Part shown: one piece after another, positions 48,547 through 52,287 of the stretch
Position numbering within the stretch: the first letter of the stretch is position 1
Layout of the letters: each line of letters begins with the position of its first letter
Made by a program: the position numbers and the translations under genes
Assembly: GCA_009692205.1 (NCBI GenBank)
Contig: SHZR01000017.1
Coordinates: 1-57,213, forward strand
Reading direction: 5' to 3'
Source of the DNA: Gemmatimonadota bacterium
GTDB taxonomy: Bacteria > Gemmatimonadota > Gemmatimonadetes > Longimicrobiales > Gaopeijiaceae
Length of the DNA: 57,213 nucleotides
The notes under the pieces: model-generated
Database searches by the model: none
What the model was told of the DNA's origin: nothing
The model's input: the letters and a program-made list of their open reading frames with translations, nothing else

Positions 48547-50028
48547 ATGAAGATCCTCCTCCCCCTCTTCGATCGACCCGTCCGAGGTGTGCTCGGGGCG
48601 GTCGCGGCCTTCCTCGGGCTGGTCGCGCCTGCCGCGCTGAACGCCCAGGCCACGGCGCCCGAGGGTCGGACGCACGTATTCGCCGCGGCGGACTTCGGGA
48701 TCAATCCGGCAGAGGTGACCTTCACCAAGGACATCGCGCCGATCCTTCAGCGCAGCTGCGAGAATTGCCACCGGCCGGACGGTGCCGGGCCGATGTCCCT
48801 GGTCACCTACCAGGAGGTTCGGCGGTACGCGGCCCGGATCCGGGAGCGCACGGCGATCCGGGACCGGATGGGTGCCATGCCGCCCTGGTACGTCGAGAAG
48901 GACATCGGCATCCAGCACTATAAGAATGATCCGTCCCTGTCCGACGAGGACCTCGCGAGGATTCAGGCCTGGGTGGACAACGGGGCGCTAGAGGGTAACG
49001 CGGCCGACATGCCGGCACCGCGGACATGGTCCGACGGTACCCAGTGGACGGTTCGTCCGGACTTGGTGGTGCGCTCGGCGGATATCGTGGTGGACGGGGC
49101 CGCACCCGACTGGTGGGGCGAGATCGGGAGCATCCCGATTCCGCTCGAGCAGGACCGGTACGTTCGCGCGGTCGAGGTCCGGGAGGTCAACGACGTGCCC
49201 CGCGCCGGGAGCGGAAGGGCGACCGTGGGTGGCAAGTACATCATCCACCACATGATCTGGCGCACCCAGTTGGCGGGAGGCAGTCAGCAGACGGCCTGGC
49301 CGGTCCACGAGGTCGGCCGTAACCCGGACGTCTTCGGCGAAGGCGCTGGCCGCCTCCTGAGGGCCGGATCCGAGATCGCGTCCGAGTCCGTGCACCTGCA
49401 TTCGAACGGACGCACGACGACGGGGCATCTCGAGATCGCGTTCGAGCTGTTCCCCGAGGGATACGAGCCGCTCTATCGCGGCGGCATCACCTCGCTGGCC
49501 AACGGCTCGGACATCGACATCCGAGGCGGGAGCGCCGGGCAGGAGCTCGACGCGTACACCGTGGTCCAACGGCCCACCAAGATCATCAGCTTCGAGCCGC
49601 ACCTTCACGCGCCCGGTGAGCGGATGTGCCTCGAGGCGATCTGGGGCTTCAAGGCCGAGACGCTCGCCTGCGTCGGCTATGATCACAACTGGGTGCGCAC
49701 GTATGTGTTCGAGGACAACTACCAGCCGCTCATCCCTCCGGGCGCCATGCTCCACATCCGCGGCTACATGAACAACTCGGAGACGAACGGCAACGTCCCG
49801 GATTCGCGGAATTGGCAGGGCTCCGGGAATCGGTCGATGGCGAACATGTTCATCGATCTAGGCGAGCGGGTGACCATGACCGAGGAACAGTTCGCCAAGG
49901 AAGTGCAGGAGCGCGCCGCGTACTTCCAGCTGACCAAGAACGACTACATGATCGGCTGCCCCCTCTGCCTGGCGATCGTTCCCACCCCGGGAGCGCGGCC
50001 TCTCGCGTCGACGCAGCAGGACCATTAG
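48547..50028 (+). CDS. Secreted c-type heme and PHM-like copper monooxygenase fusion
   Basis: 493 aa. A signal peptide ends AALNA before Gln. A cytochrome-c-like domain follows (FTKDIAPILQRSCENCH), with CxxCH at Cys71, Cys74 and His75 and a Met in MGAMPPW as a possible sixth ligand. The C-terminal 300 residues match the copper type II monooxygenase fold of PHM and related enzymes. The ligand order is kept: His234-His235 (IHHM), His283 or His285 (HLHSNG), His352 and His354 (EPHLHAPG), and Met434 (ANM). In rat PHM the same order HH, H, HxH, M holds the two coppers. I infer that the heme domain feeds electrons to the copper site in place of ascorbate. Substrate unknown. Confidence 0.78.
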   Translation: MKILLPLFDRPVRGVLGAVAAFLGLVAPAALNAQATAPEGRTHVFAAADFGINPAEVTFTKDIAPILQRSCENCHRPDGAGPMSLVTYQEVRRYAARIRERTAIRDRMGAMPPWYVEKDIGIQHYKNDPSLSDEDLARIQAWVDNGALEGNAADMPAPRTWSDGTQWTVRPDLVVRSADIVVDGAAPDWWGEIGSIPIPLEQDRYVRAVEVREVNDVPRAGSGRATVGGKYIIHHMIWRTQLAGGSQQTAWPVHEVGRNPDVFGEGAGRLLRAGSEIASESVHLHSNGRTTTGHLEIAFELFPEGYEPLYRGGITSLANGSDIDIRGGSAGQELDAYTVVQRPTKIISFEPHLHAPGERMCLEAIWGFKAETLACVGYDHNWVRTYVFEDNYQPLIPPGAMLHIRGYMNNSETNGNVPDSRNWQGSGNRSMANMFIDLGERVTMTEEQFAKEVQERAAYFQLTKNDYMIGCPLCLAIVPTPGARPLASTQQDH

Positions 50029-50047
50029 CTCGGAGCAGATAGCACGA

Positions 50048-51022
50048 ATGAGGACGATGGTGACCAAGACGCCCATACGGCTCGCCTTGGCGGCGATGTC
50101 GCTCAGCCTACTCGCCGCGCCATCGGTCGTGGGCGCGCAAGGGCTGACCTACGCTAGCGGACAGTCGGTCTCTCCGGCCTTCGAGGGCTGGAGGGACAAT
50201 CCCGACGGGTCGTTCACTCTCGTGTTCGGTTACATGAATCGAAACTGGGAGGAGGAGCCCGACGTCCCCGTCGGCGCCGACAACCGTTTCTCCCCAGGGC
50301 CCGAAGACCGCGGGCAGCCGACGCACTTCCTGCCGAGGCGCAACCGCTTCGTGTTCGAGGTCAGGGTCCCGGCCGACTTCGGTGAAAAAGAGCTGGCGTG
50401 GACGTTGACGCGGGCGGGCGAGGAGGAGACGGCTTACGGCAGGCTGCGACCCGACTACTACGTCGACAACGTGGTGATCATGTCGGAGACGGGAACCCTG
50501 GGGGCGGGCACCAGCGACCCCGAGCTGCGGGCGACCACGCCGCCCCAGGTCACGATGGAGACTCCGTCCGAGATGCAGGCCGTGGTGGGCCGGCCCGTGC
50601 GTCTCGTGGCCCACGTCACCGACGACGGGTTGCCCCGGCGGAGCAGGAATCGCTTGCCCCTCACGGACGATGGGCAGCTGGACCTGACCCGGGCGCTGAC
50701 GGCGCCGCCTTCCCGCATCACCGTGCAGAAGATCGTCGGGCTCAACATGAGTTGGTCGGTCTATCGTGCCCCCGAAGGTGTGAAGCAGCGCGCGGCCATG
50801 TTCGATCCGCCGCAGGTGGCCGTCTGGGAAGACACGCGCCCGTTCTCCAACTCGCCGTGGGCGACGTTCTGGGTGCCCCCCGAGCTGCCGGAGGACAGCC
50901 GCTGGATCGCGGACGTGACGTTCACCGAGCCGGGGACCTACGTCCTGCGGGGTCGTGCCGATGACGGAGGTCTCTTCACGGATGAGCAGGTGACCGTCCA
51001 CGTAGGTAGGCCCGTCTCCTAG
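50048..51022 (+). CDS. Secreted protein of unknown function between the monooxygenase-like and lyase-like genes
   Basis: 324 aa from ATG 50048, 19 bases after the previous stop. Signal peptide ends SVVGA before Gln. The first half (SPAFEGWRDNPDGSFTLVFG, with YMNRNWEEEPDVPVG) and the Ig-like second half (RPVRLVAHVTDDGLP, then DVTFTEPGTYVLRGRADDGG) look like two beta-sandwich domains. No cysteine pairs or catalytic motif stand out. It does not end in glycine, so it is not an obvious amidation substrate. Its position makes it a candidate partner, scaffold or carrier for the flanking enzymes. Confidence 0.7.
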   Translation: MRTMVTKTPIRLALAAMSLSLLAAPSVVGAQGLTYASGQSVSPAFEGWRDNPDGSFTLVFGYMNRNWEEEPDVPVGADNRFSPGPEDRGQPTHFLPRRNRFVFEVRVPADFGEKELAWTLTRAGEEETAYGRLRPDYYVDNVVIMSETGTLGAGTSDPELRATTPPQVTMETPSEMQAVVGRPVRLVAHVTDDGLPRRSRNRLPLTDDGQLDLTRALTAPPSRITVQKIVGLNMSWSVYRAPEGVKQRAAMFDPPQVAVWEDTRPFSNSPWATFWVPPELPEDSRWIADVTFTEPGTYVLRGRADDGGLFTDEQVTVHVGRPVS

Positions 51023-51046
51023 GACCTGGTCGGGCCCGACGCGTCA

Positions 51047-51076
51047 CGGGTGCCTTGCCGGTCGACGCGGCACCCG
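51047..51076. other. Eight-base-pair hairpin in the gap before the PAL-like gene
   Basis: CGGGTGCC at 51047-51054 pairs with GGCACCCG at 51069-51076 over a 14-nt loop. It lies in the 113-bp gap between the unknown gene and the PAL-like gene. It may attenuate or process the transcript, and no T-run follows. Confidence 0.35.
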
Positions 51077-51135
51077 ATAGCGTGGCCCGCTCGCGCGCCG
51101 GACATCGGCGCCATCCGTTCCTAGGAGGTGTTTTC

Positions 51136-52287
51136 GTGAGACGTGTTCTCCTTGCGGTCGCGGCACTAGCCTCGATCGCCGCTCCGGCGCTCGCGCAGCG
51201 GGTCCCGGAGCTTCCGTTCGAATCGGTGCCCAACCCGCTGACCTTGCCGGACGACATCCACTTCGGTGAGATCGGCGGCGTGGCCGTCAACTCCCAAGGG
51301 CACGTCTTCGTCTTTTCGCGCGGTAACTCGGTCGGTCCGTCGTACATGGCGAGAGCCTCGCAGCTCCTCGAGTTCGACGCCAACGGCCGATTCGTGCGGG
51401 AGATCGGCAAGAACCTCTACGGGTGGTCCTACGCGCACGCGGTGCGCATCGATCCTCAGGACAACATCTGGGTCGTCGACAAGGGATCCGACTTGATCCT
51501 CAAGTTCAACCCGGAAGGCCGCGTGGAGTGGGTGTTCGGGCGGGTTCAGGAGGCCTCTCACTTCACCGGGCCACCGGACTACGCCTCGACGCTTGCCGGA
51601 TACCTCGAGCGCGCCGGGGTGGAGGTGAACATTCCGGAGAACAACGACCCGCGCTGGCCGATCCCGGTCCATCGGGACAACGTGTTCAACCAGCCGACCG
51701 ACGTCGCGTGGGACTCGCAGGGCAACTCGTACTTCAGCGACGGCTACATCAACTCGCGGGTCGCGAAGGCCAACGCGCGCGGCGAGTGGGTCAAGAGTTG
51801 GGGATCTCTGGGCAGAGGCCCGGGCCAGTTCGACACGCCGCATGGCATCGCGGTCTCGCCGGCCGACGAGGTCTATGTGGCCGACCGCGGAAACCGCCGT
51901 ATCCAGGTCTTCGACACCGAGGGCACCTACATCCGGGAGTTCATCATCGATGTCCCGGTGGACACGACGCGCGGCGCGATCACCTATGGCACGGCGAACC
52001 CGAACGGGACCCGCGGGTCGCAGGCGCCCGGCGCGCCCGACGCGCTGTGCATGACGCCTGGTCCGAACCCTGTCCTCTTCGTGGGCGACCTGTATCCGAG
52101 CCGTATCTACAAGGTGTCGCTGCAGGGCGAGGTGCTCGGAGTGTACGGTCAGCCGGGCCGTAACCTGGGTGAGTTCGGCTGGATCCACGGCATCGCCTGT
52201 CCGTCTGAGGACGAGATCTGGGTCGCGGAGCTCATCAACTGGCGCGTGCAGAAGCTCGTCACGCGGGGCAGGGGCGGAGAGCAGTAA
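51136..52287 (+). CDS. Secreted PAL-like propeller (peptidyl-alpha-hydroxyglycine lyase family, NHL repeats)
   Basis: 383 aa from GTG 51136, behind a strong AGGAGGT at 51123-51129. Signal peptide ends APALA before Gln. NHL-type repeats build a six-bladed propeller (IGGVAVNSQGHVFVFSRG, VRIDPQDNIWVVDKG, PTDVAWDSQGNSYFSDGYIN, IAVSPADEVYVADRGNRRIQ). The residues that define active PAL are all in place: zinc histidines His101 (AHAVRID), His236 (PHGIAV) and His351 (IHGIAC); catalytic Tyr204 (DGYINSR); Arg62 (FSRGN); and Arg251 (DRGNRR). In animals this lyase finishes peptide amidation by splitting peptidyl-alpha-hydroxyglycine to amide and glyoxylate. A generic NHL protein would not keep all six. 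Confidence 0.78.
   Translation: MRRVLLAVAALASIAAPALAQRVPELPFESVPNPLTLPDDIHFGEIGGVAVNSQGHVFVFSRGNSVGPSYMARASQLLEFDANGRFVREIGKNLYGWSYAHAVRIDPQDNIWVVDKGSDLILKFNPEGRVEWVFGRVQEASHFTGPPDYASTLAGYLERAGVEVNIPENNDPRWPIPVHRDNVFNQPTDVAWDSQGNSYFSDGYINSRVAKANARGEWVKSWGSLGRGPGQFDTPHGIAVSPADEVYVADRGNRRIQVFDTEGTYIREFIIDVPVDTTRGAITYGTANPNGTRGSQAPGAPDALCMTPGPNPVLFVGDLYPSRIYKVSLQGEVLGVYGQPGRNLGEFGWIHGIACPSEDEIWVAELINWRVQKLVTRGRGGEQ

Follow-up and report, generated by a model that had tools for sequence, protein, structure and literature searches.

Do three adjacent genes of a Gemmatimonadota bacterium encode the animal peptide-amidating enzyme PAM in split form, or does another part of the locus make up the conserved unit? 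The genes, here called P1, P2 and P3, lie at positions 48,547 to 52,287 of the window, the whole 57,213-nucleotide stretch (contig SHZR01000017.1, assembly GCA_009692205.1) that was analysed. The original prediction read P1 as a heme-wired PHM-like enzyme and P3 as a PAL-like lyase acting in a joint pathway, on either side of a secreted protein with no known role. Our analysis points to a different unit: many bacteria carry the P1–P2 pair, often in more than one copy, and a PAL-like gene is only its occasional neighbour, and we consider it likely (probability about 0.7) that P1 and P2 are one exported module, predicted to be a heme-fed type II dicopper C–H hydroxylase with an immunoglobulin (Ig)-like partner.

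The gene layout is as originally described, with three open reading frames in a row, each with a Sec-type signal sequence at the N-terminus of its product (judged by eye), the cited residues in place, and the PHM-like and PAL-like proteins encoded by distinct genes rather than on one chain:

48547..50028, + strand: P1 open reading frame, 493 amino acids (from the open reading frame list, predicted structure and ligand conservation)
50048..51022, + strand: P2 open reading frame, 324 amino acids; an alternative in-frame ATG at 50057 is possible
51123..51128, + strand: AGGAGG, the likely P3 ribosome-binding site, read from the sequence
51136..52287, + strand: P3 open reading frame, likely GTG start (NHL Pfam match, E 8e-18; rat PAL alignment over the whole propeller)

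The GTG at 51136 lies 7 bases after the AGGAGG, and a start there reproduces exactly the residue numbering used for P3 in the original prediction.

Fold, copper ligands and heme motif of P1

The AlphaFold model of P1, for which 37 homologues were aligned, has a predicted local distance difference test score (pLDDT) of 81.7, and when it was compared with the PDB by Foldseek the best 31 matches were all PHM or DBH (E 3.5e-9 to 1.1e-6, probability 1.00); by this comparison P1 has the two-domain beta-sandwich fold expected of type II dicopper monooxygenases. The CuM ligands of rat PHM are H242, H244 and M314. Its CuH ligands are H107, H108 and H172 (PMC6123673). In an unforced alignment of the P1 profile to rat PHM (the rat PHM and PAL reference sequences used here agree with the PDB) H234/H235 fall on H107/H108, H283 on H172, H352/H354 on H242/H244 and M434 on M314, and both the His-His plus His set of CuH and the HxH plus Met set of CuM are present in P1. 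All six residues are invariant in 42/42 aligned same-phylum sequences, an unselected set found by whole-sequence similarity; in a wider set of 129, part of which (80 contig loci) was gathered with a pattern containing HxH, the five histidines are invariant and M434 is present in all sequences save one with a gap. The copper-ligand order first proposed for P1 is thus borne out, and of the two histidines then offered as the third CuH ligand, H283 (42/42) stands and H285 (26/42) does not. The heme and copper features of P1 are the following:

48757..48771, + strand: CxxCH c-heme attachment motif, C71 to H75; C71, C74 and H75 in 127/129 sequences, the other 2 gapped
48877..48879, + strand: M111 in 'MPP', likely distal heme ligand; 129/129
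49246..49251, + strand: H234-H235, equivalent to PHM CuH ligands H107-H108 in the rat PHM profile alignment; 129/129
49393..49395, + strand: H283, equivalent to PHM CuH ligand H172 in the rat PHM alignment; 129/129, with H285 varying
49600..49608, + strand: H352-x-H354, equivalent to PHM CuM ligands H242/H244; 129/129, and 42/42 in the unselected set
49846..49848, + strand: M434, equivalent to PHM CuM ligand M314; 128/129, one gap

P1 has the CxxCH and probable distal ligand of a c-type cytochrome domain, although Pfam sees in it only a weak cytochrome (PF13442 matches 31 of 37 members, weakly). On the strength of its model, then, P1 is an exported protein that joins a c-heme domain to a dicopper monooxygenase of PHM/DBH fold, with copper and heme presumably loaded; the fusion proposed originally is recovered here by the CxxCH together with the Foldseek match to PHM at E = 3.5e-9. 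It is plausible that the heme is the electron input of P1.

In PHM, R240, N316 and Y318 anchor a glycine-extended peptide by its carboxylate. The equivalent positions in P1 are E350 (E in 105/129), I436 (I in 94/129) and L438 (L in 101/129), with R, N and Y rare, in a comparison that relies on how P1 is aligned around the CuM ligands, where the HxH and the Met anchor it locally. Since P1 lacks these peptide-carboxylate residues, glycine-extended peptides would be unlikely substrates, judging by sequence.

P2 as the conserved partner of P1

The predicted model of P2 consists of beta sandwiches (pLDDT 88), and its best solved-structure matches are Ig-domain proteins, weak and with low TM-scores. 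Pfam has no family for the window's P2, its relatives give scattered weak PKD/Ig-type matches, and no invariant His or Cys set suggesting a metal site is present in P2. The idea that P2 is a recognisable enzyme was dropped on account of the missing Pfam family and the weak fold matches.

In profile searches of 150 genomes of the phylum, P2 was found in 41, all of which also carry P1; P2 is missing from no genome that has a strong P1 match, and the 3 P1-positive genomes without it hold distant, weak P1 relatives. Of the strong P1 genes, 116 in all, 113 are accompanied by a same-strand P2 no more than 2 kb away, downstream of P1 in 69 cases and upstream in 44 (the gap has a median of 90 bp), and P2 is present, nearly always directly downstream of P1, in 74 of 80 further contig loci, which come from Gammaproteobacteria and Acidobacteriota (mostly these two) and Gemmatimonadota. 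In 4 of the 6 contig loci without P2 the contig ends right after P1. The members of the pair span at least three phyla, no P1–P2 fusion protein occurs among the fetched loci, and searches for P1 or P2 on plasmids gave no match. Conserved adjacency of P1 and P2 in relatives is therefore strongly present, and the middle protein, treated originally as a bystander, proves to be the conserved partner of P1 (113/116 genes; 41/41 genomes).

The two proteins also vary together. Mirror-tree comparison of P1 and P2 distances gave r = 0.907 over 108 pairs (the maximum of 500 shuffles was 0.23). Simple inheritance as the cause of this co-variation was tested with within-genome paralogues, among which r is still 0.71, a value reached by 0 of 1000 shuffles. 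Flanking synteny as the cause of the linkage was likewise rejected, since the core-gene flanks of the window locus are unlike those of its relatives: on one side of P1-P2-P3 lie genes for an M48 peptidase, purD and DNA-formamidopyrimidine glycosylase, and on the other a pyridoxal phosphate-dependent trans-sulfuration-type enzyme, phosphomannomutase and glmS (all named by sequence recognition). The pair stays together in different genomic surroundings. This 2.7 Mb genome has 14 P1 loci, and therefore different substrates are suggested for them.

A short C-terminal motif of P1 goes with gene order:

49957..49968, + strand: CPLC motif, C471 to C474; C471 in 102/129 and C474 in 101/129 sequences

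It marks a P1 clade that includes the window's P1, and the order is P1 then P2 in 92 of 95 pairs with this tail; in the P1 clade without CPLC, P2 mostly comes first. A scan for sigma-70 promoters found none, the expected result for a G+C-rich organism.

P3 and the other neighbours of P1–P2 loci

P3 is 27% identical to rat PAL over 346 aligned columns (pairwise blastp E = 6e-25, residues 43-364 to 19-304), and a profile of P3 plus nine relatives matches the PAL structure 3fvz over positions 45-345, the whole propeller, with E 2.6e-29. The homology is thus with the entire PAL propeller, beyond the shared NHL repeats. The PAL zinc ligands H585, H690 and H786 correspond to H101, H236 and H351 of P3, and catalytic Y654, R533 and R706 to Y204, R62 and R251:

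51319..52188, + strand: PAL-equivalent residues R62 (51319), H101 (51436), Y204 (51745), H236 (51841), R251 (51886) and H351 (52186-52188), from the rat PAL alignment

The resulting signature, 'RHYHRH', is identical to that of rat PAL, and the local motifs SDGYxNSR, PHG and ADRGN match as well. What the original prediction said of these six residues is therefore confirmed one-to-one against rat PAL, and comparison with NHL and PAL models likewise supports it (NHL Pfam E 8e-18, full-length homology to rat PAL). P3 is thus, from its residues, an exported PAL-like NHL beta-propeller with the full active-site set. It resembles PAL in being an NHL propeller with all six checked zinc and catalytic residues kept, and differs in being a separate gene with extra inserts, in having W-I-H-G in place of rat M784-P-H-D787, and in not being consistently linked to a monooxygenase.

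This genome contains 24 matches to the P3 profile, and the PAL residue set is present in 13 of 37 aligned propeller sequences (PAL and P3 included). Of 35 related propellers, found close to P1 or by searching, 14 (among them L059:6843-8144, L066:14295-15389 and L169:10680-11789) form a variant class, RHHHRE, with His for Tyr654 and Glu for the zinc ligand His786, as though the metal site had been remade from a different set of ligands; the tools used here turned up no report of this variant. Tandem PAL-like pairs (L061:13342-15996, L071:11031-13250, L074:405-2647 and L073:6715-10180) combine a copy in which the PAL residues are intact with one in which several are gone (H585 replaced by Q, H786 by N).

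Is P3 linked to the P1–P2 pair? All five nearest P1–P2 loci (72-81% identity) are without it, and its own nearest homologues (39-49% identity) are located away from those loci, mostly as tandem pairs. Of 80 loci taken from other genomes, 9 have a propeller matching the P3 profile at a distance of up to about 8 kb, and 1 of these propellers has a near-canonical residue set; the adjacency of P3 is not conserved in relatives. At L064 and L076 the neighbour of a P1/P2 unit is a canonical PAL-like gene, and at L059 it is one of the variant class; this genome has three placements of a PAL-like gene next to P1 (the window, L059 and L064). In three genomes, and with expected counts that ignore contig ends, 11 of 62 PAL-like genes are found 5 kb or less from P1 where 2.7 were expected (about 4-fold, Poisson P about 1e-4), as are 7 of 56 PQQ (pyrroloquinoline quinone)-repeat proteins where 2.4 were expected (about 3-fold), whereas the amidohydrolase control shows no enrichment (1 of 27, 1.1 expected). 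Because PQQ proteins are enriched near P1 too, the PAL signal is not unique; a PAL-specific clustering was rejected for this reason, and the clustering of PAL-like genes near P1 is loose, real and not PAL-specific.

Ten loci have a same-strand PQQ alcohol dehydrogenase gene (PF01011, member tested) 67-399 bp upstream of P1, preceded in 8 of the ten by a di-heme cytochrome c gene. The gammaproteobacterial row of di-heme cytochrome c, PQQ alcohol dehydrogenase, P1 and P2 on one strand is found at L160, L161, L164, L168-L171 and L173, and a CopC-type copper protein gene (PF04234, member tested) is near P1 in 12 gammaproteobacterial loci. Within this genome the order is PQQ dehydrogenase, PAL-like, P2, P1 at L059 and VOC protein, P2, P1, PAL-like at L064; L061 (G000:C7:1-16000) holds two P1 genes, one P2, a cyclase-family protein, a DUF5916/CBM9 protein, a PQQ dehydrogenase and two PAL-like genes. 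A similar arrangement occurs at G003:C26 (L071). The PQQ dehydrogenase, PAL-like and CopC neighbours of P1 fit copper and a hydroxylation after which the product is oxidised further or cleaved outside the cytoplasm. PAL-like genes and PQQ alcohol dehydrogenases are best read as facultative downstream enzymes of predicted function.

Mechanism, rival explanations and meaning

The predicted P1–P2 module could work as follows. Periplasmic cytochromes, in place of ascorbate, would reduce the covalently bound c-heme of P1, from which electrons would pass to CuH and then to CuM with O2, as in PHM; the pair would hydroxylate an sp3 C–H of a small organic compound, not a glycine-extended peptide, with P2 probably assisting P1 in substrate presentation, docking or stability. 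The product may then pass to a nearby exported enzyme, in several loci the PQQ alcohol dehydrogenase; at the window locus P3 could cleave a carbinolamide or hemiaminal.

Several points weigh against so reading P1 and P2. The P1 model superposes loosely on PHM (root-mean-square deviation mostly 6-8 Å, PHM-normalised TM about 0.5-0.6). An hhalign comparison of the P1 profile with the single rat PHM sequence gave E 0.094, and since this score is not significant the alignment of ligands counts only jointly with the fold match. The search against the PHM models PF01082 and PF03712 suggested at the outset gave no match for P1 itself; PF03712 is matched weakly by 3 of 37 homologues (best E 6e-4), and its best and only match in this genome, a weak one of 22.1 bits at G000:C32 (L065:9007-10323), is below the cut-off of 23. 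P1 is therefore called 'PHM-like' and not PHM, and the missed cut-off is probably a limit of model sensitivity, because fold and ligands agree. Some of the more divergent P1 relatives (e.g., L065:9007-10323, which is G000:C32, L066:10918-12249 and L090) have no adjacent P2, and the physical contact that would make P2 a dedicated partner or scaffold of P1 is inferred from the linkage.

Four other explanations have to be set beside the hydroxylase module. That the locus is a split bacterial PAM, in which P1 would act on a glycine-extended peptide and P3 would split the hydroxylated product into glyoxylate and a C-terminal amide, would agree with the six PAL residues of P3, with the canonical PAL-like genes beside P1/P2 at L064 and L076 and with the 4-fold enrichment near P1; we nevertheless find it very improbable, since the five closest P1–P2 loci and nearly all others are without P3, the carboxylate anchors of PHM are mostly E, I and L in P1, the clustering extends to PQQ dehydrogenases and no substrate peptide gene was identified. 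A conserved split-PAM operon was rejected on the closest loci, and with them and the missing anchors the joint PHM–PAL pathway first proposed falls as a conserved unit. A doubtful but somewhat better possibility is that P1 and P2 hydroxylate a carbon beside N or O of a non-peptide (N- or O-dealkylation) and that P3 speeds the breakdown of the hemiaminal at a few loci only, which is the preferred hydroxylase scheme in a version where P3 truly belongs to the pathway. The enrichment of PAL-like genes and their three adjacent placements in this genome speak for it, and a bacterial hydroxylase plus lyase logic exists for methylguanidine demethylation (PMC12508155); the facultative linkage of P3 speaks against it, as does the share of aligned propellers (14/35) in the variant class, where Y654 is replaced by H and H786 by E.

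P3 might instead be an ordinary NHL propeller whose likeness to PAL and position are coincidental. Such propellers are common, as the 24 matches in this genome show, and the adjacency of P3 is not conserved, yet six PAL residues kept together with three local motifs and a full-length alignment make this unlikely. It is quite improbable, too, that P1 is no oxygenase and keeps the PHM fold for copper storage, copper sensing or heme-to-copper electron transfer; its heme and copper sites could serve electron transfer and CopC is nearby in some loci, but both PHM copper sites are strictly invariant, including the catalytic His-His-Met of CuM, and the 14 divergent loci with PQQ dehydrogenase, VOC, cyclase and amidohydrolase neighbours look catabolic. 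The preferred hydroxylase module has one bolder extension, in which the heme-fed PHM-fold hydroxylase and an obligate Ig-like subunit would produce a hemiaminal or carbinolamide, to be cleaved outside the cytoplasm by a lyase of canonical PAL type, that is, prokaryotic PAM-type chemistry run on respiratory electrons and not on ascorbate; this we regard as unlikely.

Among the animal copper enzymes of the textbooks are PHM and DBH, which depend on ascorbate. P1 has their fold and all six of their copper ligands; it differs in its N-terminal c-heme domain, which would replace ascorbate, in its lack of peptide-carboxylate anchors and its near-obligate P2 neighbour, and in being bacterial, exported, present in many copies and missed by PF01082/PF03712. 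As in the bifunctional PAM of animals and green algae, PHM-like and PAL-like proteins are encoded close together in the window, but P1 and P3 are unfused, their pairing is not conserved and the conserved partner is P2. The bacterial MgdH-MgdL hydroxylase and lyase, which deal with hemiaminal breakdown, are a possible functional parallel of P1 plus P3; there, according to PMC12508155, the methylguanidine hydroxylase is a 2-oxoglutarate/Fe(II) enzyme and the lyase has no sequence homology to PAL. In an open-access subset of the literature nothing was found on heme-fused bacterial PHM-like proteins, and no Pfam or NCBIfam family fits the catalytic part of P1 or P2.

If the P1–P2 reading is true, a large bacterial branch with a built-in c-heme and P2 would answer how a PHM/DBH-type enzyme may be reduced without ascorbate, and it would add an exported C–H hydroxylase family for which curated models have as yet no name. 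With 14 P1 loci in this genome and members in three or more phyla, the family could be a significant unannotated part of organic-matter oxidation.

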